Source: Mechercharimyces sp. CAU 1602 (lineage in GTDB: Bacteria; Bacillota; Bacilli; Thermoactinomycetales; JANTPT01). Taken from it: a stretch of DNA of 64,000 nucleotides. The DNA lies in NCBI RefSeq assembly GCF_024753565.1, contig NZ_JANTPT010000001.1:372001-436000 (forward strand). The letters are read 5' to 3'. Numbering within the stretch: the first letter of the stretch is position 1; each line of letters begins with the position of its first letter. This document shows, one piece after another, positions 14,602-30,965 of this stretch. A program made the translations under genes and the position numbers. Under the pieces are notes generated by a model, which made no database searches, was not told where the DNA came from, and saw nothing but the letters and a program-made list of their open reading frames with translations.

Positions 14602-15072
14602 ATAGGAACCGTCAAGCACGACATCGAAGCGGCACATCGCCGTTATGCGCAAGACTACGACTGTATGACGCCTCGCGGAGTTCATCGTTTATTGCGGGAC
14701 CAATTCAAGTTAGGCGTAAGGTGTTACGACAAAGGCGATTACGCAGGTAAGGATATCTTAATGGATTTACACAAGGCTTACTGGAAAGCGGGGTTAACCG
14801 AGCGTCAGAAAGAGGCGCTGTATTACGTTTACGTGCGGGACTTACGACAAGTGGACACGGCGTTTGAGATGCGGATTACGCAGCAGGCTGTAGCGGACCA
14901 CATTATCGGAGCGCTGAAACGGATAGCGAAGGTTTACGAAGTTTGGAGCGAAGAAACAGGGAAGGAGGAAACGGAAGCCTGTTATGTTTGCGGAAAGTAC
15001 CTCCTATCCGGCGAAGAAAGAAGCGGAATGTGTATTGAGTGTGAGCGAAGGGAGGCGACAAGCGATAAGTAA
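14602..15072 (+). CDS. Sigma-70 region 4-like protein with zinc ribbon
   Basis: The central segment (LTERQKEALYYVYVRDLRQVDTAF, then ITQQAVADHIIGALKRI) is a sigma region 4 helix-turn-helix. A C-terminal CYVCG...CIEC set forms a likely zinc ribbon. No region 2 is visible, so it is not a complete sigma factor. It may redirect host RNA polymerase as a late-gene activator. The binding site AAAGGAG is followed by ATA at 14602, in frame and 8 bases away; the first ATG, at 14665, has no binding site. The start is therefore uncertain. Confidence 0.68.
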   Translation: MGTVKHDIEAAHRRYAQDYDCMTPRGVHRLLRDQFKLGVRCYDKGDYAGKDILMDLHKAYWKAGLTERQKEALYYVYVRDLRQVDTAFEMRITQQAVADHIIGALKRIAKVYEVWSEETGKEETEACYVCGKYLLSGEERSGMCIECERREATSDK

Positions 15073-15334
15073 ATTGCGAAATCACTACGGCTACGGCGTT
15101 AGAAAAGACGAAGAGTCTTTCGCAGACAAGATACCGCCTGGCGGAAACTGGCGAAGTCTAAGTCGAGAGGATCAACTAGTTTTCTGGAACGGAAAGATAC
15201 CCATTAGTGGAGGTAGCACTAATGGGTTGCGCAAGAAAGCGTGGGATGAGCCTGCTGGAACTATTACGACTTCACCGATTCAAAAACTATCGTGCCAGCT
15301 TCATCCTGGCGCAAATATTGAAAGGAGTGGATAT
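15065..15334 (+). pseudogene. Fragment of a second C5 methyltransferase target-recognition region
   Basis: About 90 codons in the same frame as the methyltransferase downstream. They read like the C-terminal half of another C5 enzyme: KIPPGGNWRSL, then AWDEPAGTITTSP, then LHPG, which is the family pattern around the recognition domain. The ensuing methyltransferase already has its own complete set of motifs and its own ATG with AAAGGAG. The fragment starts near ATA 15065, after GGGAGG, and contains a perfect 10-bp hairpin at 15200-15226. It may be a recombination remnant, or an N-terminal extension if translation runs through. Confidence 0.45.
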
Positions 15335-16441
15335 ATGGAGTTTAACGTGACACCAACGGAACCGTCGAATGGACTCACGATTGCGGAGTTGTTCTGTGGA
15401 GGCGGATTGATGGCGGTAGGGTTAAAGGAAGCGGGATTCGATATTGTCTGGGCAAACGATGTAAATAAGCAAGCAATAAAGGCATACCGACACAATGTAG
15501 GAATGCACGCGGTTCTAAGTGATATAACGGAGATCGATCCTGAGGGTATTCCGGATACAGATATTATTGCCGGAGGACCACCGTGCCAAGACTTTAGCGT
15601 AGCAGGTAAGCATGACGGGGAGGAGGGGAAGAATGGCCGGCTAGTATGGGCGTATTTGAACATTATTGAGCGCAAACAACCGAAAGCTTTTATATTTGAA
15701 AACGTCAAGGGATTGATAGGAAAGCGCCATAGAGAAACGTTTGACTCTCTTATTACGAAGTTTAACGAAATTGGGTATCGAATTAGTTGGCGACTGATAA
15801 ATGCATGGGACTACGGAGTGGCGCAGAAGAGAGAACGCGTGTTTATCGTGGGTATACGAAGAGATCTCGGTTTTGAATTTCAGTTTCCGGAACCTGATCC
15901 CGCAGACTACCGGACACAGGTATTGTGTGATGTAATTGGCGATCTACCTGTACCTGATCAGAATTGGAACGTTAAGAAGCCTGAGCGTAAGGCGAATATG
16001 AGCGCACCGAGTCCAACGATTACGACACAGTTTTATTGCCAGACAGTGGAGATTTCGAATCACGATGAGAAGTCATACTGGACTCCGAAAAGTGATTATA
16101 GCTACGACCAAGCTAATCGCGTTCAATCCCTTAGTCAACCGTCAAATACGATACCCGCTCATCATAATTCCGGACAGCCGATCCACCCGCAGTCAAAGCC
16201 ACGTAGATTCACCGTTAGAGAATGTTTGCGAATCCAATCCGCGCCTGACTGGTACGTCATACCGGAAGACTTATCGTTATCTGCGCAGTATCGCATTGTC
16301 GGAAATGGCGTAGCATGTCGGGTGGCGTGGTATCTCGGAAAAGCATTAGCGCAACAATTAAACGAATATTCGAAAAAGGAGGTGTTAGATTGGCGTTCAC
16401 GATTACAGACGACTATAAAAAACAATTCGAAGGCGCAGTAG
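15335..16441 (+). CDS. DNA (cytosine-5) methyltransferase
   Basis: The 368-residue enzyme transfers a methyl group from SAM to cytosine C5. Motif I is IAELFCGGGLMAVG, motif IV is GGPPCQDFS with the catalytic Cys, motif VI is FENV, motif VIII is QKRERV, and motifs IX-X are RECLRIQ and YRIVGNGV. All are present in order. No cognate restriction enzyme is nearby, so protection of phage DNA from host restriction is the likely role. It starts at ATG 15335, eight bases after AAAGGAG. The frame is open upstream through the fragment at 15,065, so a longer form is possible. Confidence 0.9.
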   Translation: MEFNVTPTEPSNGLTIAELFCGGGLMAVGLKEAGFDIVWANDVNKQAIKAYRHNVGMHAVLSDITEIDPEGIPDTDIIAGGPPCQDFSVAGKHDGEEGKNGRLVWAYLNIIERKQPKAFIFENVKGLIGKRHRETFDSLITKFNEIGYRISWRLINAWDYGVAQKRERVFIVGIRRDLGFEFQFPEPDPADYRTQVLCDVIGDLPVPDQNWNVKKPERKANMSAPSPTITTQFYCQTVEISNHDEKSYWTPKSDYSYDQANRVQSLSQPSNTIPAHHNSGQPIHPQSKPRRFTVRECLRIQSAPDWYVIPEDLSLSAQYRIVGNGVACRVAWYLGKALAQQLNEYSKKEVLDWRSRLQTTIKNNSKAQ

Positions 16442-16854
16442 ATGCGTTGCTTGCGAAGGAGGCGTTTATTGAGTGCAGGGAATTTCGAATGAGCGTGGTT
16501 AACGACTTGATAACGGAGTATACGCATTTTATCGGGGAATCACCTGACACAAAGCAACTGGAACGATTGACTGATTATATTCTTCACGAAGAGATAAACG
16601 ATCCACATCCGGATAAAGCGAGTCGAGAAGAGTATCCGATATTTAGCGATAGGCAACTGGAGAGGCGACGGAGTGGCGAGGTTTCGTTTAAGAAGGCTAG
16701 AGATGTTGGAACGGATGGACGATTTTATCGGAAACCGAGGAGACGGTTTTACGATAAGGATACGCATAAGCGGAATAAGACGCGGAAGAAGCGATATACG
16801 AAGGATACTAAGGCGAGCGAGGTACGAGTGTATTCGTTGGAAAATTCGGATTGA
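16390..16854 (+). CDS. Hypothetical phage protein with basic C-terminus
   Basis: A 154-residue protein starting at TTG 16390, after AAAGGAGG, inside the 3' end of the methyltransferase gene. The first half is acidic and helical. The second half is very basic (RKPRRRFYDKDTHKRNKTRKKR region) and may bind nucleic acid. No family recognised. Confidence 0.55.
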   Translation: MAFTITDDYKKQFEGAVDALLAKEAFIECREFRMSVVNDLITEYTHFIGESPDTKQLERLTDYILHEEINDPHPDKASREEYPIFSDRQLERRRSGEVSFKKARDVGTDGRFYRKPRRRFYDKDTHKRNKTRKKRYTKDTKASEVRVYSLENSD

Positions 16855-16908
16855 TGGCGGTTATAGGACAAATTATGAGATCCGTATATTTAAATGAGGT
16901 GAGAGAGG

Positions 16909-17061
16909 ATGAAAGGGAAGGCTAAAAAGAGATATGAGCTTAAATTAGCGATACCATCAAAAGAATTAAATAAAGAAGAGCTTGCTAAGGCAAAAGAAAA
17001 AGAGGCTTTAGTAATAGATTTCCTTATTAATAAATACCTTTCAAAAGAAGCTGGCATATAG
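16909..17061 (+). CDS. Small basic helical protein upstream of the integrase
   Basis: A 50-residue Lys/Glu-rich protein with ATG 16909 after GAGGTGAGAGAGG. It has a lower GC content than the replication block, like the integrase next to it. Small basic proteins beside large serine integrases can be recombination directionality factors; nothing in the sequence proves that role here. Confidence 0.5.
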   Translation: MKGKAKKRYELKLAIPSKELNKEELAKAKEKEALVIDFLINKYLSKEAGI

Positions 17062-17074
17062 CCGGCTCTTTTGT
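17049..17074 (+). terminator. Probable terminator before the integrase gene
   Basis: AGCTGGC (17049-17055) pairs with GCCGGCT (17061-17067), including one G-U pair, followed by CTTTTGTTT. It separates the integrase from upstream transcription. A TATAAT at 17076 and a perfect 12-bp palindrome TTGTGTACACAA (17094-17105) follow, suggesting separate control of the integrase. Confidence 0.55.
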
Positions 17075-17123
17075 TTATAATAAGTGTAATTCATTGTGTA
17101 CACAAAAAAGAGAGGTGGATTCG

Positions 17124-18728
17124 GTGTCTGTAGCTATATACGCAAGAGTATCTACACTGACACAAGTTGATGGTACTAGCCTGGACTCGCAAATAGACTT
17201 TTGCCAGAAGAAAATAAAAGAATTAGGTATAGGTGGAAGTATAGAGGTATTTAGAGAAGAGGGAGCATCTGGCGAGAATATTGAACGTCCGCAAATGGAC
17301 AGGTTGCGTGAGAACGTGAAGAATGGAAGTGTAACTCACGTGATTTGTACTCATCCGGATCGGTTAAGCCGGAATCTAGTCGATAAACTATTAGTTTGCG
17401 GGGAATTTGAAAAAAGCAATGTAGAACTTATTTTTGTTGATACCGAATACAAAAATACGCCGGAAGGACAGCTATTTTTTAATATGCAGTCCGCTATTGC
17501 ACAGTACGAATTAGCGCAGATACGAAAACGAACTGTGACTGGACGTATAAAAGCGGCCGAAAGAGGTCAAATCCTCCCTATGAGAACGACACCTTACGGT
17601 TACGAATTTCAGGACGGGAAGCTAGTAATCAATGAGGAAGAGGCTAAATTCGTTCGTATGGTATATGATTGGTATGTATACAAAAACCTTACATTACGAG
17701 AAATCGGAGAAAAGTTACACGAATTAGGGGCAAAACCACGACGAGGAAAGCAATGGAACGCGTCATCTATAGGGAGAATATTGAATTCAGAGACGTATGC
17801 AGGGACTTTTTATTATAATCGCAGAGAAACGAAGAAGGTTAAAGGTAAAACAAAATCGGGTTATGTACGTAAAGCCATATCGATGCGTGATAAGGACGAT
17901 TGGGTCTCAATAACTGTGCCTGCGATTATTGATAAAGCGCTTTTCGAGTTAGCGCAAAGGCAACGAGAGAAGAATAAAACGTTTTCTGGTAATGTTAAGC
18001 ACGAGTATATGCTAAAGTCGTTACTCCGTTGCGGACATTGTGGACGTAAGTGGCAGGCTACAACGTATTCCGGAAGAAAAGATCAACGGTATAGAAGCTA
18101 TCGTTGTCCAAATAAATTCCCTAGAAAATATGGAGGAGAAGTGAAAAAGTGCGATACACATGCAATTAGAGCAGAACAACTGGAAGATTTCATCTGGGGG
18201 ATAGTATTTGAGATAGTCTCTCAACCTAAGAAATATATAGAAAGGATCGGTGAGGGAGCGAAGGCGCACGAAATAGAAATTAACGAAACCATCGGCGCTT
18301 TAAAGATACGTTTTGAAGACCTAAACAAACAAAGAGAAAAGCTGAAATATATGTTCCTAAACGACCTCATTACAGAGGAAGAAATGCAAAGAGACATGTC
18401 AGGCATCAACAAAGACATAGGAATTGTAGAGAATCAGATCAAGGCGTTGCAATCAAATCAGGATGAGCAAACGAATAAATTGTTGGCAAAAGAGAGTTTT
18501 GAATCAATGATGGAAGGGATTCAGAAAATGCTTAAAGAGGAATTGTCAATGAAGGAAAGGAGACACATTATAAGTTTGATCATGGATGAAATAGTGCTAT
18601 ACTTTGACGGCGACGAGGCAAAAGTGATTTGCTTTGGTCCTATGGAGCATATTTTAAAAGAGGCTAAATTGAGTGGAGATATTGACATTGAATCGTGTTC
18701 ACAACGCTTTGCAAATATGGGCTACTAA
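17124..18728 (+). CDS. Large serine integrase / excisionase recombinase
   Basis: The 534-residue recombinase carries the resolvase catalytic domain (YARVSTLTQ with the nucleophilic Ser, GTSLDSQ, HPDRLSR), the recombinase DNA-binding domain (about residues 165-270), a zinc ribbon (CGHCGRKW ... CPNK ... KKCDTHA), and a Glu/Lys-rich coiled coil typical of this class. It would integrate and excise the prophage. It is convergent with truncated sigK, as spoIVCA is with spoIVCB in Bacillus subtilis, and its last 30 bases lie inside the sigK frame. The start is GTG 17124 after GAGAGGTGG; the ATG-less upstream frame to 17094 lacks a binding site. Confidence 0.95.
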
Positions 18729-21481: not shown

Positions 21482-22423
21482 ATGGAGCAATCAAAGATAA
21501 AGGAATTATTTTCTCTTTTTGATATCGAAGGGGATGGATCTGCGGTCACGTCTATATACCCGTATGCGCCTGTGTATAAATGCGAATATATGCATCATGA
21601 TGTGATAATAAAACGTACCAGGAAGAAGATTGATGAAGCTAATCAATTGAAAGAATGGCTATATTATCTAACGGGGCGGGGAATCAAGGTGGTCACCCCT
21701 TTTAGGAATAAGCCGTTTGTTCACTTTGATGGGGACAATTGGGTTATGTATCCTTTTATTGAAGGACGAATCTATAATGGCTCTGCAGGTGATATTGTGG
21801 AAGCTGGAAAGCTGTTGGGTCAACTGCATAGCCAAGAGAATCTATTTAATAGTGGTCGGTTTGATTGGGCACAGTTTGATGAGGACTATAAGGAAGAGAT
21901 TATTTCTGATGTCACTAAGATTAGTAATTGGATTGGAGATGAACCAGCAGAACGGAAATTTAGATCTATTGCCGATAAAATAGAGAAGTTTTTATCAGCA
22001 GGGTTGGCATGCCTGCCACATGAAGATCTACCGATAGTAACAGCTAGTCGAGATTATAAGGCAAGCAACATAATTTTTACGAAAGATGAGAAGCCCACCT
22101 TGATCGATCCAGATAATGGCGGTATGATTCCGCGAATTGTTGACTTAGCGATTGCTTGTATCCTGTTTCATAATGATGGTATAGATTCAATACCAGCCCG
22201 TCCTTTAACAAAGGGAGAGTGGGACTTATTTATGGAGGGATATAACAGGCATGTTGAGTTAACTGATATAGAAAAAGAAGTATGGAATGACATCCTTACG
22301 CTCATGTACATGGATGAAGGGTTGTGGCTAATTGTTGATTCTATAGATGACACTAATTCTAGATTGAAAGAATTTACCTATTCTTTGACGCAGTTTGACT
22401 TTGATCTATATAAGGTTGAATAG
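21482..22423 (+). CDS. Aminoglycoside phosphotransferase-family kinase
   Basis: The 313-residue protein has the APH/choline kinase fold: an N-terminal Lys strand (DVIIKRTR), hinge (WVMYPFIEGR), catalytic loop ASRDYKASNII (family HxDxxxxN; here the His is Ser) and metal-binding LIDPDNGG. It transfers phosphate from ATP to a small molecule, and the substrate cannot be predicted; spore-associated and antibiotic kinases share this fold. The start is ATG 21482 after CTAGGGGG. It is followed at once by a perfect bidirectional terminator. Confidence 0.75.
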   Translation: MEQSKIKELFSLFDIEGDGSAVTSIYPYAPVYKCEYMHHDVIIKRTRKKIDEANQLKEWLYYLTGRGIKVVTPFRNKPFVHFDGDNWVMYPFIEGRIYNGSAGDIVEAGKLLGQLHSQENLFNSGRFDWAQFDEDYKEEIISDVTKISNWIGDEPAERKFRSIADKIEKFLSAGLACLPHEDLPIVTASRDYKASNIIFTKDEKPTLIDPDNGGMIPRIVDLAIACILFHNDGIDSIPARPLTKGEWDLFMEGYNRHVELTDIEKEVWNDILTLMYMDEGLWLIVDSIDDTNSRLKEFTYSLTQFDFDLYKVE

Positions 22424-22424
22424 T

Positions 22425-22470
22425 GTAACAAAAGAAGAAGCCCGCTAGAATGGGCTTCTTCTTTTGTTAC
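22425..22470. terminator. Bidirectional terminator between convergent genes
   Basis: A perfect 19-bp stem (GTAACAAAAGAAGAAGCCC and its complement) with an 8-base loop lies between the kinase gene and the convergent peptidase gene. The A/T-rich outer stem supplies a T-run on both strands. Confidence 0.85.
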
Positions 22471-22499
22471 TGCCACCTGAGTGAAGTTGTGATAGTTAC

Positions 22500-23777
22500 T
22501 TAACTGGCACGCACGATCGAGGCGCAGAAATGCTCCATATCCATATGCTCGTATAAGGATTGTTGTACATCATGGAGGGTGAGGTGAGAGAGAATCGTGG
22601 ATAGGCGGAAGAGATCTGCTCGGTTTAAATAATAACGAGTAAATTGTTTAGCAATCCATTCGAGTGAGTTGAAGGATGTTAAAATTTCCCCCATTTTTTC
22701 TTTACGTAGCAGCTCCCACTCTGCTAGATGGATCCCCTCATTGAGTAGGCGTGGAAGTTCTGCTTGTACGCGTTGGAGCAGTGTGTCTGGATCGGAAGTG
22801 GTACCGTGCATGAAAGAGAAGCCAAAGCCTTGTGCCAAACAATACTCGGCTTTAAAGTCTACGTCTAAGAGGCCCTCATTGTGAAGGCTATTATACAACC
22901 ATGATCCTTTGCCAAAGAGTGCTTGTAAAGCTAATTGTGTGCATAGCTCTTGCTTTAAGTAGTCGTCACCCATAGCATCTACACGTGCTTCTTTAAATCC
23001 GAAGTAGCAGATGTTATTACCGGTGGGAAGAGAAATATCTGTTATTGGACGGGAGGGGTGGATCGGCTCTTCAACAGGTTTGCGCTCTACGTTAGGGCGA
23101 GTAGGGAAAGTTTTAAGTGCTTGATTTCGACGGATATGCTCTATAGTTTCTTCAGGATCGATTGGTCCTACGACGAAGAGCAGCAGTTGACTAGGATGAT
23201 AAAAGGTTTCGTAACAAGTACGTAGAAGCGATTTGTTGATGTGTGAGATCGATTCAGAGGTGCCTGCAATATCGATGCGGACGGGATGACGGTGGTACAT
23301 GGCGCTTAATAAGCCAGCGTAGGCGCGCCAGATAGGATGATCGTGATACATATTGATCTCCTGTTCAATAATCGGCTTCTCCTTATCAATATTCTCATCT
23401 GTTATGTATAATTGTTGCACAAAGTCGAGTAAGTGATGGAGATTATTCTCTACTTGATGAGTGCAACTCATCAGGTAAGAAGTTTGCTGGTAAGAAGTAA
23501 TGGCATTGATGGAGGCACCTTGATGAGCAAACTTTTGAAATACGTCTTCGTTTGGATCTTCAAACATCTTATGTTCAAGGAAGTGGGCAACGCCGTGTGG
23601 AGCTAATATCTCTTCATGTGGAAGAGAAAAATGCCGATCGACGGAGCCATATCCTGTCGTAAGTGTAGCATACGTCTTGGTGTAGTTTGGTCGGGGAAGA
23701 AGACATATAGTCAGTCCGTTGGCAAGTTGCTCTGTGTAATATCGTTCTTGGAGTAGGGTGTTAGTAAATTCATTCAT
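22500..23777 (-). CDS. M16 family metallopeptidase, YmfH-like (catalytic subunit)
   Basis: The 425-residue protein has the inverted zinc motif HxxEH in GVAHFLEHKMFED near residue 65, with the downstream Glu in PIIEQEINMY near 141, so it is expected to be active. M16 enzymes cleave peptides inside a closed chamber formed by two halves. It overlaps by 4 bases the next gene upstream, which encodes the second half. The same MFS, YmfF, YmfH order occurs in Bacillus subtilis, so the pair may be ordinary housekeeping (linked to EF-P modification in annotation). Given the peptide genes upstream, it could also mature secreted peptides. Confidence 0.85.
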   Translation of the reverse strand: MNEFTNTLLQERYYTEQLANGLTICLLPRPNYTKTYATLTTGYGSVDRHFSLPHEEILAPHGVAHFLEHKMFEDPNEDVFQKFAHQGASINAITSYQQTSYLMSCTHQVENNLHHLLDFVQQLYITDENIDKEKPIIEQEINMYHDHPIWRAYAGLLSAMYHRHPVRIDIAGTSESISHINKSLLRTCYETFYHPSQLLLFVVGPIDPEETIEHIRRNQALKTFPTRPNVERKPVEEPIHPSRPITDISLPTGNNICYFGFKEARVDAMGDDYLKQELCTQLALQALFGKGSWLYNSLHNEGLLDVDFKAEYCLAQGFGFSFMHGTTSDPDTLLQRVQAELPRLLNEGIHLAEWELLRKEKMGEILTSFNSLEWIAKQFTRYYLNRADLFRLSTILSHLTLHDVQQSLYEHMDMEHFCASIVRAS

Positions 23778-25084
23778 CTTAAATCGCCTCCTTCGTCATC
23801 ACCTAGGAAGTAGATGGTATCCAAATAGAGTAATTGAGCCACTTGTTGTACATCTTCTTTACACACGGCCTGGATGCTGGTTTGCAGTTCTTCCCAGGAA
23901 CGCCGCTTTCCACTTAGAACCTGATGATAATCCTCATTGATGAGGTCGATTGCTTGATCTTGTTTTTCCTTGTGTTGATTGATTAAAAGGGCTTTGCTTT
24001 GCGCTAATTCGCTCTCACTGATGTCTCCTGTCTCCATCGCTGCTAACTGTTCTTTAATGATGGTAATTGCTTTATCCTTATTGTGGCTATCAATTCCAGC
24101 GTGGATCATGAATAGCCCCTGATGAGCTTCTAAAGTTGAGGAGGCGTAATAAGCGAGGTTCGCTTTTTCACGTAGCTCCCGAAAGATTTTAGAGTAGGGG
24201 AAAGCTCCTAGAATGGCATGATAGACGAGCAGAGCAGGGTAATTTTCACTCCCGAGGGAGAGGGATGTTCGGCAACCGATAGTTAACTTCGCTTGGGTAG
24301 ATTTTACTTGCTCTACTACTTGTGTCACTTTGGGCGAATGAACCTTCTTCTTTGATGTCGGATTTAAAGGCAGAGACTCCACGTTGTCTCTTGTGGGAAA
24401 ATAACCTTCTATAAGCTTAATAATAGAGTGAAGAGGGGCATTTCCTACAAAATAGAGATCAAGAGGGTAGCGTTTGACCCATTCTTGATAGTAGGAAAAC
24501 AAAGACTTTCCATCTACAGCTGGAATATCTTTTCTTCTGCCATGAATATATAAAGAAAATGGCTCGTCTTTGTACATCTCCTCTGTAGCACGATACATCG
24601 CGTAGAGGATGCTGTCATTTTTGAGACCCTCTATCCGTTGGCGCAGATGGCGTTTTGCCAGCTGGACGTGTTCGTCTACGAATTGTCCGTTAGCGTGATT
24701 CGGTTGGAAAAGTAGTTGCGCAAGGAGAGCAAACCCTTCTTCCAAAAGTGGAGGTTGATCGGGAAGATAGGCTTCATTTGCTATCTCTAGTCCCATCTGT
24801 AAAACCTGATAATCCCCTCTCTTTAGTACTTTAGACGTGAGAGTAGCCCCATAGAGTGAGCGTAGTTGTGATTGAATATCCTTTGAAGTTGGTAGCGAAC
24901 GAGTTCCACTTGTTAGGATTTTTGGTAAAAGTGCTGTCTTTGTAACAGATTGGCTGGTTAGGTTTTGCGCGATCATAGCCATAATGGTATTTGTTTTAAA
25001 TTTGTCAGAGAGATAAACGTGGAGCCGCAATCCCTCCAGCTGAATCGTTTCAAATTGAATAAGTGTGGTTTCCATAGATGCCAC
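23774..25084 (-). CDS. M16 family peptidase-like protein, YmfF-like (inactive partner)
   Basis: The 436-residue protein has the M16 fold but no HxxEH: the equivalent region reads LLPKILTSGTRSLP. It is therefore probably the non-catalytic half that completes the chamber with the YmfH-like protein, whose gene starts before this one ends. C-terminal half motifs such as LREKANLAYYASS (the M16 Arg/Tyr substrate-binding region) are present. The start is ATG 25084 after AAGGGGTGGC. An internal ATG at 25075 is an alternative. Confidence 0.82.
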   Translation of the reverse strand: MASMETTLIQFETIQLEGLRLHVYLSDKFKTNTIMAMIAQNLTSQSVTKTALLPKILTSGTRSLPTSKDIQSQLRSLYGATLTSKVLKRGDYQVLQMGLEIANEAYLPDQPPLLEEGFALLAQLLFQPNHANGQFVDEHVQLAKRHLRQRIEGLKNDSILYAMYRATEEMYKDEPFSLYIHGRRKDIPAVDGKSLFSYYQEWVKRYPLDLYFVGNAPLHSIIKLIEGYFPTRDNVESLPLNPTSKKKVHSPKVTQVVEQVKSTQAKLTIGCRTSLSLGSENYPALLVYHAILGAFPYSKIFRELREKANLAYYASSTLEAHQGLFMIHAGIDSHNKDKAITIIKEQLAAMETGDISESELAQSKALLINQHKEKQDQAIDLINEDYHQVLSGKRRSWEELQTSIQAVCKEDVQQVAQLLYLDTIYFLGDDEGGDLR

Positions 25085-25113
25085 CCCTTCTAAATATTGA
25101 GTCTGTTATTAGA

Positions 25114-26349
25114 TTAACTGCTTTGTACCTCAACGTGTAGTTGCTCTTTCTTCTTAGGGGCTAGCGTGATCCATACTGCAGCGATAAAACCTAGTACAAA
25201 GAGGAGGGAGGCTAGTTGAAAGAGCAATGTAATAGAGAAAAATGCTTTTAAGCTCCCCACTGCAGCCATGGCAAGCACCATCGCTCCCGTGAAGAGGGGA
25301 TTGAGAATACCGCTGACGCGCCCAATGTAAGCTTCTTCTACTTGTAGAACAACGAGAGTATACACCCCGATTTGTATAAGAGGCATAACAAATCCGACAG
25401 CCACTTCAGCGATCAAGGTAACCCATAGCCACTCGGAAAATCCAATAATAGAGACTCCACCTGCACTAATCACCATGCCGATGGTGAGCATTTTATGTGG
25501 TGGTAATTTTTTAGAAAGAGCTACTCCCATACCAGAACCGATAATCATGCCGAGACCATTGGCGATCATCAACCATTGTAATGACTCCTTAGGTAGTTGT
25601 AATTGCTCTGTGACGAGAAAGATGTTTAATGGTTGAATGAGACCTCCAGAGATCCCTACAGTAATAAAACAGGCTCCAAGGAGAAGAAGTTCTCTGCGGG
25701 AGAAGACATAGCGGAATCCATCCAGCATTTCTTGGTGTACTTTGCGATTGCTTTTGCTTTTAACCGTCTCGTCTTTAGGTAGGAAAGTGAGTACAAGTGC
25801 AGAAAGTGCAAACGAAATCCCTGTTAATACAATTGCCCAGCTGATTCCGAATTGCTGGTAAATGGCTGTTCCGATTACGGGTCCTAAGATAATAAAAAGC
25901 GATGTGGTTGTTTGATAGTAAGAGATACTTTGTTGTAAGTGCTCCGCCGATACATGTGCTTTAAATAATTTGCGACCGGAAGGCTGTGAAAACTGGGATA
26001 GGATAGAAGAAAATAAGGTAGCGAAAAAGATTACTTTCCATGTGCCAAATACGAGTGTAAGTAAGACGATGAAGATGGAGACTGAGCTTAGAAATGAACA
26101 CCAAAACATGGTTTGTTTTGGTCGCCATCTGTCGGCAAATGTACCCCCGATAAAGGAGAAGAGAAAAATGGGTGCGTACTCAGCGATGGAGATCATAGAG
26201 ATCGCAATGGCGTTTCCATTGGTTTGTTCCATCACAAATAGCAGAATAGCAAAGTTACGAATCCAGATGCCGATCTGTAAAAAGAGATTGGATAACAAAA
26301 TATATCTTACATATTTATTTTGAAATAGCGGAAAGGTTTTTGAAATCAT
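25114..26349 (-). CDS. MFS exporter (MFS_3/EntS-type)
   Basis: The 411-residue protein has 12 predicted membrane helices and the MFS loop motif GGTFADRWRPKQ between helices 2 and 3. It probably exports a small molecule or peptide by proton antiport. In Bacillus subtilis an MFS gene (ymfD) precedes ymfF-ymfH, so the link to the M16 pair is conserved. Here a nine-copy peptide gene array lies directly upstream on the same strand, which makes peptide export an attractive but untested role. The start is ATG 26349 after GAGGGGAG. Confidence 0.82.
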   Translation of the reverse strand: MISKTFPLFQNKYVRYILLSNLFLQIGIWIRNFAILLFVMEQTNGNAIAISMISIAEYAPIFLFSFIGGTFADRWRPKQTMFWCSFLSSVSIFIVLLTLVFGTWKVIFFATLFSSILSQFSQPSGRKLFKAHVSAEHLQQSISYYQTTTSLFIILGPVIGTAIYQQFGISWAIVLTGISFALSALVLTFLPKDETVKSKSNRKVHQEMLDGFRYVFSRRELLLLGACFITVGISGGLIQPLNIFLVTEQLQLPKESLQWLMIANGLGMIIGSGMGVALSKKLPPHKMLTIGMVISAGGVSIIGFSEWLWVTLIAEVAVGFVMPLIQIGVYTLVVLQVEEAYIGRVSGILNPLFTGAMVLAMAAVGSLKAFFSITLLFQLASLLFVLGFIAAVWITLAPKKKEQLHVEVQSS

Positions 26350-26390
26350 GTTTCTTTCGCTCCCCTCACATTCTTCACATATTAAAAGTA

Positions 26391-26446
26391 TAGTGGAGAT
26401 GGGAGTGCCTATGTATTACTTTATTCATGTATGGTAGACACTCCCC
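26391..26446 (-). terminator. Imperfect hairpin between the peptide array and the MFS gene
   Basis: AGTGGAGATGGGAGTG (26391-26406) pairs imperfectly with the CACTCCCCACTCTACT near 26,430. On the - strand it is followed by ATACTTTTAA. It may partly stop transcription leaving the array. The stem has mismatches, so this is tentative. Confidence 0.3.
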
Positions 26447-26484
26447 ACTCTACTACATTAAGCTAGGTTTGAGATCAGATAGTT

Positions 26485-26526
26485 TTAGTCTGGGATAATG
26501 ATAATGATCACCGTGTTGCGTTCCAT
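26485..26526 (-). CDS. Mini-ORF copy 9 of the array (last transcribed), MERNTVIIIIIPD
   Basis: Carries a silent ATC to ATT change in the Ile run; the peptide is unchanged. About 135 bases separate it from the MFS start. Confidence 0.6.
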   Translation of the reverse strand: MERNTVIIIIIPD

Positions 26527-26572
26527 CACGCGTCACCTCCTAAGGTAAGGTAGGGTAAGAGTTAGAAGGTTT

Positions 26573-26614
26573 TTAGTCTGGGATAATGATGATGATCACC
26601 GTGTTGCGTTCCAT
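26573..26614 (-). CDS. Mini-ORF copy 8 of the array, MERNTVIIIIIPD
   Basis: Consensus coding sequence with AGGAGG 9 bases upstream. Confidence 0.6.
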   Translation of the reverse strand: MERNTVIIIIIPD

Positions 26615-26658
26615 CACGCGTCACCTCCTAAGGTAAGGTAGAGGGTAAGTTAGAAGGC

Positions 26659-26700
26659 TTAGTCTGGGATAATGATGATGATCACCGTGTTGCGTTCCAT
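26659..26700 (-). CDS. Mini-ORF copy 7 of the array, MERNTVIIIIIPD
   Basis: Consensus coding sequence. The region before its binding site differs by one base (ACATTAGGAGG), and the CGCGCG variant lies between binding site and ATG. Confidence 0.6.
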   Translation of the reverse strand: MERNTVIIIIIPD

Positions 26701-26745
26701 CGCGCGTCACCTCCTAATGTAAGGTAGGGTAAGTTTAGAAGGTTC

Positions 26746-26787
26746 TTAGTCTGGGATAATGATGATGATCACCGTGTTGCGTTCCAT
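26746..26787 (-). CDS. Mini-ORF copy 6 of the array, MERNTVIIIIIPD
   Basis: Consensus coding sequence with AGGAGG 9 bases upstream. Confidence 0.6.
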   Translation of the reverse strand: MERNTVIIIIIPD

Positions 26788-26830
26788 CACGCGTCACCTC
26801 CTAAGGTAAGGTAGGGTAAGTTAGAAGGTT

Positions 26831-26872
26831 TTAGTCTGGGATAATGATGATGATCACCGTGTTGCGTTCCAT
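26831..26872 (-). CDS. Mini-ORF copy 5 of the array, MERNTVIIIIIPD
   Basis: Consensus coding sequence with AGGAGG 9 bases upstream. Confidence 0.6.
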   Translation of the reverse strand: MERNTVIIIIIPD

Positions 26873-26915
26873 CACGCGTCACCTCCTAAGGTAAGGTAGG
26901 GTAAGTTAGAAGGTC

Positions 26916-26957
26916 TTAGTCTGGGATAATGATGATGATCACCGTGTTGCGTTCCAT
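26916..26957 (-). CDS. Mini-ORF copy 4 of the array, MERNTVIIIIIPD
   Basis: Consensus coding sequence with AGGAGG 9 bases upstream. Confidence 0.6.
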   Translation of the reverse strand: MERNTVIIIIIPD

Positions 26958-27001
26958 CACGCGTCACCTCCTAAGGTAAGGTAGGGTAAGTTAGAAGGTT
27001 C

Positions 27002-27043
27002 TTAGTCCGGGATAATGATGATGATCACCGTGTTGCGTTCCAT
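27002..27043 (-). CDS. Mini-ORF copy 3 of the array, MERNTVIIIIIPD
   Basis: Carries a silent change, CCA to CCG, in the Pro codon. The peptide is unchanged and the AGGAGG spacing is kept. Confidence 0.6.
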   Translation of the reverse strand: MERNTVIIIIIPD

Positions 27044-27087
27044 CGCGCGTCACCTCCTAAGGTAAGGTAGGGTAAGTTAGAAGGTTC

Positions 27088-27129
27088 TTAGTCTGGGATA
27101 ATGATGATGATCACCGTGTTGCGTTCCAT
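27088..27129 (-). CDS. Mini-ORF copy 2 of the array, MERNTVIIIIIPD
   Basis: Identical coding sequence to the consensus, preceded by AGGAGG at the standard 9-base spacing. Confidence 0.6.
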   Translation of the reverse strand: MERNTVIIIIIPD

Positions 27130-27171
27130 CACGCGTCACCTCCTAAGGTAAGGTAGGGTAAGTTAGAAGGC

Positions 27172-27213
27172 TTAGTCTGGGATAATGATGATGATCACCG
27201 TGTTGCGTTCCAT
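27172..27213 (-). CDS. Mini-ORF copy 1 of the array (first transcribed), MERNTVIIIIIPD
   Basis: The start ATG is 9 bases after AGGAGG. It is closest to the secreted 44-residue peptide gene, 44 bases downstream of that gene's stop, with no terminator between. The product is an uncleaved-looking short hydrophobic peptide with an acidic end. Confidence 0.6.
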   Translation of the reverse strand: MERNTVIIIIIPD

Positions 27214-27257
27214 CGCGCGTCACCTCCTAAAATGGGGTAGTGCATGAATGGTGTACC

Positions 27258-27392
27258 TTACTTGATGAAATCAACTGGATCACAAATCGTGATGTCACAA
27301 ACCTCGTCGCTCGGCCCACTCTGGGCGGGGGTGACAGCTATCATGCCAAATACAGCAAGCAGTATCGACAACACAGTTGCAGTATGTTTCAT
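27258..27392 (-). CDS. Small secreted peptide precursor with two cysteines
   Basis: A 44-residue product with a basic start (MKH), a hydrophobic core (LSILLAVFGMIAV) and a likely signal-peptidase site after Thr-Pro-Ala-Gln-Ser. This would leave about 19 residues containing CDITICDPVDFIK, with two Cys that could form a disulphide. The start is ATG 27392 after AAGGAGGTG. It lies 40 bases downstream of the methyltransferase gene and 44 bases upstream of the first mini-ORF. It could be a signalling pro-peptide of Phr type, an antimicrobial peptide or an immunity factor; the sequence does not decide. Confidence 0.65.
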   Translation of the reverse strand: MKHTATVLSILLAVFGMIAVTPAQSGPSDEVCDITICDPVDFIK

Positions 27393-27432
27393 GCTTTCTC
27401 ACCTCCTTATACAGGATCGGTGTAGATAGAGG

Positions 27433-28188
27433 TTATTTTTGACACGTGATCACGATATCGGTCGAATCGGTGGTGTATGGTGAGGAGGAGAAATCCCCAT
27501 ATACTTTTTCAGTATGAAAACCAGCTTGGTGAAGCATCGATACTACCTCAGTTACTGCGAACAACCGCATCCTTGTATTGTAGTGTTGTTTCTCTCCACT
27601 GGAGGAGAGTCGCGTTTCTTGAATGTGAAGCGTACTTGTAATGGGATCCAATCCTTGTTTTCTAAGAACGTAGCCACCATTGCCATCATCAAACCAGACA
27701 AGATGTTGAAAGTTTTTAAGGACATACTCGCGATTTGCAAGATGAAGCAAAAGGGTTCCGCCTGGCTTTAAGCAACTATGCATGGATTTCAACATTTTTA
27801 AGCTATCTTCATCCGACTGGTAAACAATCGAGGTTTCAAGGTTAAGAACGACATCATATTCTCCTGTTCCTTGAAAGAATCGTGCATCCGCTTGGATTAA
27901 GGAAACTTCTTGGTTTTGCTCTTTAATATGTTGTAGATAGTATTCATTAATATCTAAGCCCGTGATGTCATACCCTTCAGCGGTTAAAGGAAGTAAATGT
28001 CTTCCATACCCACAGCAGAAATCTAGTACCTTTGGTTGTGGAGAGAGGCGATTGAGATATTCGGTTAAGAATGTATATTGCCTACGTAACATCAGATTTT
28101 CTAAGTAGTGGTGAGAGTGCATATAGGATGAATCGAAAAATTGTGTCACTTCATTGATAGAATCGGGTTGCTTTGTGTGAATGCTCAT
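27433..28188 (-). CDS. Class I SAM-dependent methyltransferase
   Basis: The 251-residue protein has motif I as VLDFCCGYGRHLLPL near residue 55, an acidic residue at the end of strand 2 (GLDINEYYL), and DVVLNLETSI at motif IV. It transfers a methyl group from SAM to an unknown acceptor. The start is ATG 28188 after AAGGAGG. It heads a run with the secreted peptide, the mini-ORF array, the exporter and the peptidases. Peptide modification is therefore possible, but a small-molecule substrate is equally plausible. Confidence 0.82.
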   Translation of the reverse strand: MSIHTKQPDSINEVTQFFDSSYMHSHHYLENLMLRRQYTFLTEYLNRLSPQPKVLDFCCGYGRHLLPLTAEGYDITGLDINEYYLQHIKEQNQEVSLIQADARFFQGTGEYDVVLNLETSIVYQSDEDSLKMLKSMHSCLKPGGTLLLHLANREYVLKNFQHLVWFDDGNGGYVLRKQGLDPITSTLHIQETRLSSSGEKQHYNTRMRLFAVTEVVSMLHQAGFHTEKVYGDFSSSPYTTDSTDIVITCQK

Positions 28189-28341
28189 AGTTTGTTCCTC
28201 CTTCGATTCGGTGTGCTTCTCTTTAATAACACTATAATGGGGATCGTTTGTTAAAAAAAAGAAGTAAATTCAACTCAAATTTTTTTGTTGTTTTTATCTG
28301 AATTTCGCTTGAAGTTTTACTATGATAGTAGAAAAGAAAAA

Positions 28342-28386
28342 CACCTCATGCGTAACCGTCCGTATTAGACGGTTACGCATGAGGTG
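28342..28386 (-). terminator. Strong terminator after the 54-residue peptide gene
   Basis: A perfect 19-bp stem (28342-28360 with 28368-28386) with a 7-base loop. On the - strand it is followed by TTTTTCTTTTC. It isolates the methyltransferase run from the genes to its right. The 28,189-28,341 gap otherwise shows only a weak -10-like TATAGT. Confidence 0.88.
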
Positions 28387-28403
28387 CGTCAGGAAGAGGT
28401 GAT

Positions 28404-28568
28404 TTAGAAGGGGCCTGGATCCTCAGAACCATTAGGATTTTCAGATGATGCAACAGTGTGGAGTGCGGAGATTTGAATACTTTTCGAAGGAGTTAATTCT
28501 GCTACAAAGCAAGTGGTTAGCAGTGAGAAGGATATGGTTGTCAATAAAATATGAGTCACTCTGTACAT
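28404..28568 (-). CDS. Small secreted peptide precursor (possible signalling peptide)
   Basis: A 54-residue product with a hydrophobic export signal (THILLTTISFSLLTTCFVA) followed by a hydrophilic tail ending NPNGSEDPGPF. The start is ATG 28568 after AGGAGGTAATCCT; an upstream extension of the frame has no binding site. The layout matches Phr/PapR-like pro-peptides, whose C-terminal residues become the signal. A HTH-TPR regulator is encoded about 1 kb away in the opposite direction. The Cys in the hydrophobic region might instead suggest a lipoprotein, but the lipobox context is poor. Confidence 0.6.
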   Translation of the reverse strand: MYRVTHILLTTISFSLLTTCFVAELTPSKSIQISALHTVASSENPNGSEDPGPF

Positions 28569-28638
28569 AGGATTACCTCCTGTTAATATAAGTAAAGTGC
28601 TTGCTACTAGCGAAATGCAACTCACTGATACTGAAACG

Positions 28639-29274
28639 TTAAAGTCCCACACTCTCTTTAAACCAATGCGAGGCGATGATAGGGGAAAGAAAATAGTCCG
28701 GTTGACTGTCTAGATGAAAGGCAGTGATTAAATATTTTTCATCTAAGCCTCCATGGAGCTGGAGCAAATGAGTGACGCGCAACACGATTTCATCCAATTC
28801 TGTTCGAATGTGATTCCAATCTGGTGTACTAGATGGAAGCATCAACGCGTACCCGATAGCGAGATCAGAGTGAATGTCATAGGTGTGTTTGAAGAGCGAG
28901 AGATCACTTTCCTCTTCATTTTCAATATTCTTAATAAAGTGAAAGTACTCATCATGTACATAGAAAGTGTAAATACCGGAATGGTTAAAACCAGAGACCA
29001 AAGTGGGATCTAACATAATCAAGGTTGGAAAAATATACTTTGTAGTAAATCCGTTATAAAAAGCCTCATATAAAATTTGTGCTAAGGTATTTTTGTGGAT
29101 CATGTAGGATCTGCGTCGGGATGAATACTGAGTGGAAACATCCTTTTCGATCGTGAAGCTTACATTTTTTTGCTTCTTATTTATATCCGCATTTAGTTGG
29201 AAAATGGGCTTTCGCAAGATGTCCGATCTGGGGTCAGGATCTCTTGCTAGTTCTACGATCGGTCTTTTCTTCAA
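28639..29274 (-). CDS. Hypothetical protein
   Basis: A 211-residue soluble protein of mixed composition with no recognised motif. The N-terminus is basic, and the centre carries aromatic-rich strands (IYTFYVHDEYFHF). The start is TTG 29274, after AAAGGAGGG. The 54-residue peptide gene lies 70 bases downstream with no terminator between them, so the two are probably co-transcribed. It is divergent from the HTH-TPR regulator. Confidence 0.6.
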   Translation of the reverse strand: MKKRPIVELARDPDPRSDILRKPIFQLNADINKKQKNVSFTIEKDVSTQYSSRRRSYMIHKNTLAQILYEAFYNGFTTKYIFPTLIMLDPTLVSGFNHSGIYTFYVHDEYFHFIKNIENEEESDLSLFKHTYDIHSDLAIGYALMLPSSTPDWNHIRTELDEIVLRVTHLLQLHGGLDEKYLITAFHLDSQPDYFLSPIIASHWFKESVGL

Positions 29275-29645
29275 CGTCCACCCTCCTTTACGTAACGTAC
29301 CTTGATAACATTACCTTGTTGTTGTATATAATGTATCTGTTTAACTGCGTTAAAAACAATAAGTAAAGTGTGCCCGTTTTTTTGTGCACTTTTCTGCTCT
29401 TTTTCAGGTTCAATTTAACATCAGTTTAGGTGTGGCATGATCTAGTACTTTATTTTAATTGGCGAGACTACATTCTTTTATCAGTTGGATTATTGCGAAA
29501 GTCTCGATAAGCATGATAAATTAGAAGTAGGGGGAACGGCTTCGTAAATATAATATCGACAAAAAAGAAGCTGTGATTGTGGTGTGAGTGTGGATTGGCA
29601 ACGTTGATGATTGCATTTCCACTACAGCAGGATAGGGGTAATCAT
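29275..29645. promoter_or_regulatory. 371-base divergent regulatory region
   Basis: No gene is supported here. It holds A/T-rich promoter-like sequence (TATATAATG near 29,325) and an imperfect palindrome AAAGTGTGC / GTGCACTTT near 29,368. An inverted repeat, CGAGACT / AGTCTCG, lies around 29,463-29,510. It separates the hypothetical-peptide operon from the HTH-TPR gene, so it is the likely site of regulator binding. Confidence 0.4.
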
Positions 29646-30965
29646 ATGGATATAGGAGAAAAGATTAGACAGTTGCGGCTTCATAAAAAGCTGACTCAGA
29701 GGGAGCTAGTCGAGGGGATTTCTTCTATTACATATTTAAGTAGAATTGAAACAGGTGATATTAACCCTTCACTCTCTTTTCTGGAAGAGATATCGGGCCG
29801 ATTGGATGTACAGGCTGCGGATTTACTGGATAAAGATAATAGTGATGCTGCAGAACGAATTTTACACATCAGTGAAAGGTATCGCTGCAAACAAACGTTG
29901 ACAGAAGCAGATCTCTCTTTTCTAAATTTACATACATCAGAGATGCATTCGACGGAAACATACGTGAAGATGTATACGACGTTGATTCGATACTATTTAG
30001 ATCAAGAAAAAGATGTAGAGACATCAGAACAGTACTATGTACAGTCTCGTCACTTTGTCCCACTCACAGTTCCAGACGAATTAGCGACAGACTACTATTT
30101 CTATTATATTTCATGTGGAAATCTATTTTATCTAAAACAAGACTACATTAAAGCCAACCATTATTACTGTCTGGCGGAACAGTTTTCTAACCATGTGGAC
30201 GATGCTATTGCTCAGGCAAAATTGTACCTTAATATCAGTCTAGTGAAGAAAGAAATGATGGAAGATAAATATATTAGTCTTGTCTATGCACAAAAAGCAT
30301 ATGAAATATTTAGAGAGAAGCAGGAAGAGCATATGATGATTAACACGTTAATCATCATGGGAGTATTGTTCCACTTGACCAAAAACTATAAGAAATCACT
30401 TAATATTTTGCATGAAGCGATGCAACAAACACCAGCTGATGACAAGTTATCTCTTGGCTTGATCTTATATAATTTTGGACGCGTATACGTGGGAGAAAAG
30501 GAGTTTTCCAAGGCTATTGAACACTTCCAACTGTCCATCGAACGCTATCGTGAGTGTGGAGAGGAACACCGAATCACTTACCCTTACTTACGTCTGATCG
30601 AAGTATACACAGAGCTGAAAGATTGGAATCAAGTAGAATCTTATCTAGGTAAAGCGATGCAGGGACTTGATTCTAAAAACATGAGTTATATGCACTTAAA
30701 GTTACTATCGATTCAAGCACGATTCTTTTTATTACGTGGTAATGAGAATAGATATGAGCGTGAGATGCAAAAGATTATTGAGTCGGGAGCGATAGAAGGA
30801 CATCTCAAGCTCTCTATTCAATTGGCGTCCCAACTGGCCCATCACTACTATGAGAAACGCGCCTACAAGAAGTCGGCCAACTATTTTAAGTTAGTATCTG
30901 ATTATAACGATCAACTAACTAAGTTAATGATCAATAATGACGAAGCAACGATTTGGGAGTTTTGA
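29646..30965 (+). CDS. HTH-TPR transcriptional regulator (RRNPP-like)
   Basis: The 439-residue protein has an N-terminal Xre-type helix-turn-helix (KIRQLRLHKKLTQRELVEG, residues 5-60). About eight helical repeats of TPR type follow (for example LYNFGRVYVGEKEFSKAIEHF). This is the layout of PlcR, NprR and related regulators that bind exported-and-reimported oligopeptides. The start is ATG 29646 after ATAGGGG; a longer frame from 29,577 adds residues before the HTH and lacks a binding site. The secreted peptide gene at 28,404 is a candidate partner. Confidence 0.82.
   Translation: MDIGEKIRQLRLHKKLTQRELVEGISSITYLSRIETGDINPSLSFLEEISGRLDVQAADLLDKDNSDAAERILHISERYRCKQTLTEADLSFLNLHTSEMHSTETYVKMYTTLIRYYLDQEKDVETSEQYYVQSRHFVPLTVPDELATDYYFYYISCGNLFYLKQDYIKANHYYCLAEQFSNHVDDAIAQAKLYLNISLVKKEMMEDKYISLVYAQKAYEIFREKQEEHMMINTLIIMGVLFHLTKNYKKSLNILHEAMQQTPADDKLSLGLILYNFGRVYVGEKEFSKAIEHFQLSIERYRECGEEHRITYPYLRLIEVYTELKDWNQVESYLGKAMQGLDSKNMSYMHLKLLSIQARFFLLRGNENRYEREMQKIIESGAIEGHLKLSIQLASQLAHHYYEKRAYKKSANYFKLVSDYNDQLTKLMINNDEATIWEF

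Follow-up and report, generated by a model that had tools for sequence, protein, structure and literature searches.

The window analysed here is a stretch of 64,000 nucleotides from Mechercharimyces sp. CAU 1602 (contig NZ_JANTPT010000001.1, positions 372,001 to 436,000; the genome is called G000 below), and our subject is a run of genes on its minus strand in which nine tiny open reading frames (ORFs) lie between a methyltransferase gene and an exporter gene. Read from right to left, the strand carries a terminator-like hairpin (28341..28387), a class I S-adenosylmethionine (SAM) methyltransferase of 251 residues (27433..28188; Pfam Methyltransf_25, E 6.7e-17), a 44-residue peptide of secreted type (27258..27392), a tandem array of nine units of about 86 nt each (26485..27230), a stable hairpin in the gap between array and exporter (26389..26457), an exporter of the major facilitator superfamily (MFS) with 411 residues (25114..26349; Pfam MFS_1, E 1.7e-38), a catalytically inactive M16 protease half of YmfF type (23774..25075) and an active M16 half of YmfH type (22500..23777). 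The first-pass annotation of this DNA had described a one-strand gene run leftwards from 28,188, and all of its genes are present at their places on the minus strand. The YmfF-type half starts with an ATG at 25075, and a longer ORF starts with a GTG at 25084. The 44-residue peptide MKHTATVLSILLAVFGMIAVTPAQSGPSDEVCDITICDPVDFIK, recognised by ORF reading, has two Cys residues after a hydrophobic stretch; it matched no family in Pfam, NCBIfam and a further family scan, and it is known from the window genome alone, no systematic search having been made for it.

The array contains nine ORFs, as counted before, and all nine encode the identical 13-mer MERNTVIIIIIPD, each with an ATG and 12 further codons. 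Alignment of the units places them on the minus strand at 27172..27213 (mini-ORF 1), 27088..27129 (2), 27002..27043 (3), 26916..26957 (4), 26831..26872 (5), 26746..26787 (6), 26659..26700 (7), 26573..26614 (8) and 26485..26526 (9). Every ATG is preceded by the Shine-Dalgarno (SD) sequence AGGAGGTGA. Seven of the nine ORFs are identical at the DNA level, and the other two carry one silent change each (CCG in mini-ORF 3 and ATT in mini-ORF 9). Counted by eye on the unit alignment, substitutions affect 2 of 378 positions in the ORFs versus 11 of about 350 in the spacers (Fisher p 0.010), and there are no indels in the ORFs versus six in the spacers (Fisher p 0.012). This pattern is compatible with constraint on the ORF; the numbers are small, and the evidence is modest because the units are recent copies. 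In all eight spacers, the stop codon is closely followed by CCTTCTAA, which is able to base-pair with TTAGGAGG in the SD of the next unit; this may possibly couple the translation of adjacent ORFs. The fold was not unusual against shuffles in the one unit tested (z -1.4). We rejected two further candidates in the array. The overlapping frame MTRDGTQHGDHHHYPRL, which begins at a GTG inside the SD, has ends that vary among the copies and stops after six codons in the related genome G020 introduced below; a GTG-ATG double start is seen only in the copies with GTG, the remaining copies reading GCG.

With a hairpin downstream of them, the runs of Ile codons are reminiscent of amino-acid attenuators, of which the ilv leaders are an example. 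Together with the pairing between each spacer and the next SD, they raise the alternative that the mini-ORFs are cis-acting leader peptides, either Ile/Val-rich attenuators or coupling ORFs, which control the exporter while the peptide itself has no function. Nine identical copies are nevertheless ill-suited to an attenuator, the SD-pairing hairpin is ordinary, the hairpins lack an accepted U-tract, and a search for Rfam elements including the T-box gave none at E 0.1 within 22,000-30,000. Conservation also extends beyond the Ile run to a charged start, M-[K/E]-R-[D/N], and a final Asp. We regard regulation by leader peptides as very improbable.

Two genomes from families other than that of the window, G020 and G327, carry related cassettes. 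In G020, the ORF for MKRDTVIIIVID begins within the end of the methyltransferase ORF (overlap ATGA) and has the SD GGAGGTGA in front of it; in G327, MKRDRIIIID follows about 55 nt after the methyltransferase gene and is preceded by the SD GGGAGGTGA. Each has a single mini-ORF compared with nine in G000. The three peptides of 13, 12 and 10 residues (G000, G020 and G327) are leaderless and SD-preceded, and they follow a common design of M-[K/E]-R-[D/N], an Ile/Val run and a terminal Asp, while the G020 and G327 ORFs differ by synonymous changes, for example Arg CGT to AGA and Asp GAC to GAT. As judged from these alignments, the mini-ORF peptide is conserved at the protein level in three genomes. 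In 20,000 dinucleotide shuffles of the flanking 200 nt for each of G020 and G327, the strict motif never appeared and the loose motif appeared twice for G020 and not at all for G327. The pattern of an SD plus mini-ORF was found in 2 of 101 genomes, G000 (nine) and G020 (one), always beside the methyltransferase, and the reversed control pattern gave none. Among 45 loci searched for SD-preceded mini-ORFs with a run of at least four I/V/L residues (methyltransferase matches, L108, L111 and L112), only unrelated short ORFs occurred beyond the three cassettes. A relaxed pattern was discarded: within the phylum it matched in 5 of 398 genomes, with ORFs of 57-374 residues, and it also matched 28 viral contigs, with ORFs of 23-481 residues; it is moreover an incomplete test since it cannot match the window's own array, which has a GTG Val codon.

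The gene order in G020 and G327 is methyltransferase, mini-ORF, stable hairpin, CapA-like gene and MFS exporter. The CapA-like proteins belong to the PGA_cap family and share 49% identity with each other; the two exporters share 39%. At E 1e-20, CapA is absent from G000 and present once each in G020 and G327. An MFS gene lies downstream of the mini-ORF or mini-ORFs in all three cassettes, and the shared core is a methyltransferase, a mini-ORF and some MFS protein, the presumed finishing enzyme being variable. The first-pass annotation had read these genes as a possible peptide-production system and had proposed the co-occurrence of methyltransferase and array with the M16 pair as a comparative check. 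The first part found support, as the methyltransferase accompanies a mini-ORF in three of three cassettes and the downstream MFS gene recurs in G020 and G327; the linkage to M16 did not, being conserved in neither of them. As an observation in its own right, a CapA-like (PGA_cap) gene lies directly downstream of the mini-ORF in both related loci (L107 and L043), although annotation otherwise places this family in capsule synthesis. A role of CapA-like proteins in peptide processing or modification is possible; in two plasmid contexts of CapA genes examined, no such mini-ORF was seen.

The methyltransferase has a narrow distribution. It shares 51% identity with the G020 copy (1.2e-80) and 44% with the G327 copy. 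Among 61 genomes (its own and 60 relatives), G020 has the sole close copy, and the next-best genome reaches 6e-30 at 31% identity. Order-wide, 2 of 42 genomes pass 1e-32, namely G000 itself and G020; class-wide, 13 of 398 pass it, of which G000, G020 and G327 score at least 256 bits and the remaining ten no more than 119. In the family of G327, 2 of 394 genomes pass 1e-40, G327 and G668, and the G668 match lies in an unrelated biosynthetic cluster with no such mini-ORF, as judged by reading its ORFs. Two further order-level searches (15 and 5 genomes) added weak matches only. A genome-contig search gave no matches with a single methyltransferase and 12 distant methyltransferases with two; a viral-contig search with the methyltransferase alignment gave none; plasmids gave three distant matches by protein and none by DNA for methyltransferase plus array. 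The three enzymes group with support of 100/99 on a long branch, in a tree whose output warns of long branches. On this phylogeny, they form what is apparently a small private subfamily, in which only G020 and G327 were found besides G000. Its profile matches CypM (PDB 7wzg, E 1.3e-10), an N-methyltransferase of ribosomally synthesised and post-translationally modified peptides (RiPPs), and its best NCBIfam match, daptide_MTase, scores 63.8 bits, far under the cutoff of 175.

Both M16 halves score above the curated NCBIfam cutoffs (YfmF_fam 448.8 bits against 285; YfmH_fam 502.7 against 250). Their earlier division into an inactive and an active half proved right: HxxEH occurs as HFLEH at residue 65 of the YmfH-type half, and the YmfF-type half has no HxxEH and keeps the R/Y pair. 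According to the available part of the paenithopeptin report (PMC8960859), an M16B pair is marked by HxxEH in one half and the R/Y pair in the other, and the window pair has both. A second, canonical ymfF-ymfH-ymfI locus of G000 (L044) stands beside ymfI and yufQ-type genes, the neighbours being named by ORF reading, and its pair shares 54% identity with the window pair. YmfH is found in all 42 genomes of the order, and four of them (G000, G036, G037 and G039) have two copies at E 1e-60. The window YmfH-type copy groups with the housekeeping copy of its own genome (99/94) on a very long branch, where the join may be a false one caused by branch length; the topology agrees with a duplication in this lineage and rapid divergence afterwards. 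At 17 housekeeping ymfFH loci (the genome's own and 16 of 41 relatives, picked by hand), the window-type MFS gene was found in none and yufQ nearby in 15 of the stretches examined. The window pair lies outside the ymfI/yufQ neighbourhood and so is not placed like a housekeeping locus. It had been objected earlier that the array may simply have landed in front of a housekeeping set, MFS-ymfF-ymfH being a conserved order in Bacillus. We rejected this for G000, to which the rejection is limited, because G000 has a second canonical locus from which the window pair is a diverged duplicate and none of the 17 loci carries the MFS gene. By homology and position, the window pair is best described as a dedicated, diverged duplicate and not the housekeeping set. 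A second YmfF/YmfH-type pair was also noticed in G036 (L108, 270-9374), directly after a LanKC-like ORF of 877 residues and ABC transporter ORFs by ORF reading, with no family scan; the locus is likely a class III lanthipeptide cluster that has a dedicated M16 protease.

The hairpin between array and exporter had been described as an imperfect one at 26,391-26,446 that may separate the two. It is indeed stable (-27 kcal/mol, z -4.53), and a hairpin follows directly after the mini-ORF or mini-ORFs in all three cassettes (z -5.62 in G327 and -4.22 in G020). Terminator scans accepted no U-tract in any of these three hairpins, which are hence not called intrinsic terminators. The natural reading is that they would act as read-through terminators or 3' stabilisers after the precursor gene. 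Upstream of the methyltransferase, the terminator-like hairpin at 28,341-28,387, with a perfect 19-bp stem at 28,342-28,386, closes the unit, and the terminator scan found no such site between the MFS, ymfF2 and ymfH2 genes.

These borders bear on whether the M16 duplicate and/or the MFS gene are only neighbours with another task, the one system then consisting of the methyltransferase, the mini-ORFs and perhaps the MFS protein. The G020 and G327 cassettes without M16, the hairpin between array and MFS gene, and the different subfamily of the window MFS speak for such a division. Against it, MFS, ymfF2 and ymfH2 follow one another on one strand and no terminator-like site was found in the gaps between them, the M16 duplicate has left its ancestral context, and G020 and G327 have a hairpin at the corresponding position with CapA and MFS genes after it. 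We consider a mere neighbourhood rather unlikely.

The explanation we prefer, with a probability of roughly one half, is a minimal RiPP-like cassette of a tiny leaderless precursor, one methyltransferase and an MFS exporter, into which G000 has recruited a duplicated M16 protease; its chemistry and function are inferred. The whole mini-ORF product has the design Met-[K/E]-R-[D/N]-x-(Ile/Val)n-Asp and is encoded downstream of the private methyltransferase. This product would be the precursor, and nine tandem copies would raise its dose. The methyltransferase would methylate the peptide, either at the N-terminal amine, as CypM does, or at the terminal Asp, which is conserved; both are candidate sites. 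The duplicated YmfF/YmfH-type protease of G000 would cut off the charged N-terminal M-E-R-N to leave a hydrophobic T-V-I5-P-D core, while the CapA-like enzyme of G020 and G327 may process or modify the peptide in some other way. PttP1/PttP2, a duplicate of this kind that processes a RiPP, is a precedent for the recruited protease, and the second M16 pair of G036 beside a LanKC-like ORF points the same way. The hairpin may let precursor mRNA accumulate over exporter mRNA, the MFS protein would export the peptide, and the product would serve extracellularly as a signal or antagonist. Taken together, the cassettes point to a previously undescribed route to small modified, exported peptides. A bolder version takes the leaderless precursor of 10-13 residues as a new RiPP class, with M-[K/E]-R-[D/N] as recognition head, a poly-Ile/Val core, a terminal Asp, a private methylating enzyme, MFS export, finishing enzymes that can stand in for each other (M16 pair or CapA-like) and an output scaled by tandem ORF copy number and not by promoter strength; we advance this tentatively, as a possibility with the odds somewhat against it.

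Several points weigh against the RiPP-like cassette. The known cassettes are three only, with M16 in one and CapA in two of them, and the window MFS belongs to another subfamily (22% and 20% identity to the G020 and G327 proteins). A leader for enzyme recognition is not evident in the mini-ORF peptides. Methyltransferases of this fold act on many substrates, and the PDB matches that score better than CypM are methyltransferases of other kinds, with no assigned peptide substrate (best 5.1e-23). A single-sequence structure model of the methyltransferase (pLDDT 36) was too poor and was discarded.

The main rival, and the closest functional alternative, is a leaderless quorum-sensing peptide. Here the mini-ORF product would be read by a receptor of RRNPP type with helix-turn-helix (HTH) and tetratricopeptide repeat (TPR) domains, encoded on the plus strand at 29646..30965 (Pfam HTH_3 and TPR_12), and the methyltransferase and exporter would be part of the circuit or regulated by it. 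The receptor is of the RapI/SinR/ComR kind by its PDB matches, and its gene is found 1.5 kb upstream of that for the methyltransferase. Leaderless communication peptides (LCPs), in the part of PMC10518010 available, are mostly hydrophobic peptides of 8-10 residues with SDs, found in Firmicutes beside RRNPPA receptors and frequently oriented away from a biosynthetic cluster, and repeated pheromones are documented with up to six copies within one propeptide (available part of PMC9765709). The same part of PMC10518010 describes LCP systems without a methyltransferase or dedicated MFS protein, however, and the charged conserved ends of our peptides differ from SIP. Reading the ORFs by eye, no receptor is apparent beside the cassettes of G020 and G327, and in the window the terminator-like hairpin and several other ORFs separate receptor from array. 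A quorum-sensing peptide is in our judgement unlikely, and the HTH-TPR protein is possibly a receptor or regulator of the cassette. It had no match in a plasmid search. The regulator gene stands divergent both from an orphan ORF of 211 residues (28639-29274, minus strand) and from the ORF of a 54-residue secreted-type peptide (28404-28568, minus strand); neither the ORF nor the peptide matched a family in Pfam, NCBIfam and the further family scan. The region 28404-30965 possibly forms a quorum-sensing module of its own. At 14984-18728 of the window, only a few kb away from the cassette, a C5 cytosine DNA methylase and a large serine recombinase likely mark a mobile element.

Precursors so short fall under the usual limits of gene calling, so that whole families can escape notice, and conserved mini-ORFs beside a private enzyme offer a way to find them. 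If the RiPP-like reading holds, the cassette would pair a ribosomal precursor of very small size with a dedicated methyltransferase, offer a natural case of dose control through tandem ORF copies, show duplicated YmfF/YmfH proteases in a second context, and suggest a tie between a CapA-like protein and a ribosomal peptide.

Literature searches, in a collection lacking most subscription journals, found no publication with the literal peptide strings, and by titles and the first lines of abstracts no such system was evident in work on CapA and RiPPs or on tandem short ORFs. Among the known systems, microcin C (mccA-mccB-mccC) resembles the cassette in its ultra-short precursor without separate leader and its minimal three-gene set mccABC. 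The microcin C precursor ends in Asn, whereas all three cassette peptides end in Asp, with a hydrophobic core and, in G000, nine copies; the modifier here is a SAM methyltransferase instead of a ThiF-type adenylyltransferase. The available part of PMC12250964 gives that precursor as MRTGNAN. No ThiF-like MccB was found among the cassette genes scanned in the window, G020 and G327, to which this search was limited. SIP and the LCPs of the RopB clan share tiny leaderless, hydrophobic, SD-preceded ORFs with the cassette and, in the window, the nearby RRNPP-type receptor, but the cassette adds a dedicated methyltransferase and exporter, the tandem array and conserved charged ends, with lengths of 13, 12 and 10 residues against mostly 8-10 in LCPs. 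CypM and the daptide methyltransferase are likewise class I enzymes of RiPP pathways, the first resembling ours by profile and the second by NCBIfam, with the sub-cutoff score given above; no cypemycin or daptide partner occurs among the cassette genes scanned. Class III lanthipeptides differ in that the window cassette has no LanKC by Pfam and NCBIfam of its genes, and MERNTVIIIIIPD has neither Ser/Cys nor the QA(A/V)(D/E) cleavage motif. The likeness to paenithopeptin, a member of that class, lies in a cluster-borne YmfF/YmfH duplicate beside a second genomic pair: in the available part of PMC8960859, which also names a gene pttMT in the cluster, the cluster-resident duplicates PttP1/PttP2 of this family process the class III lanthipeptide and outperform the genomic pair, and B. 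subtilis YmfF/YmfH processed it at about 4%.

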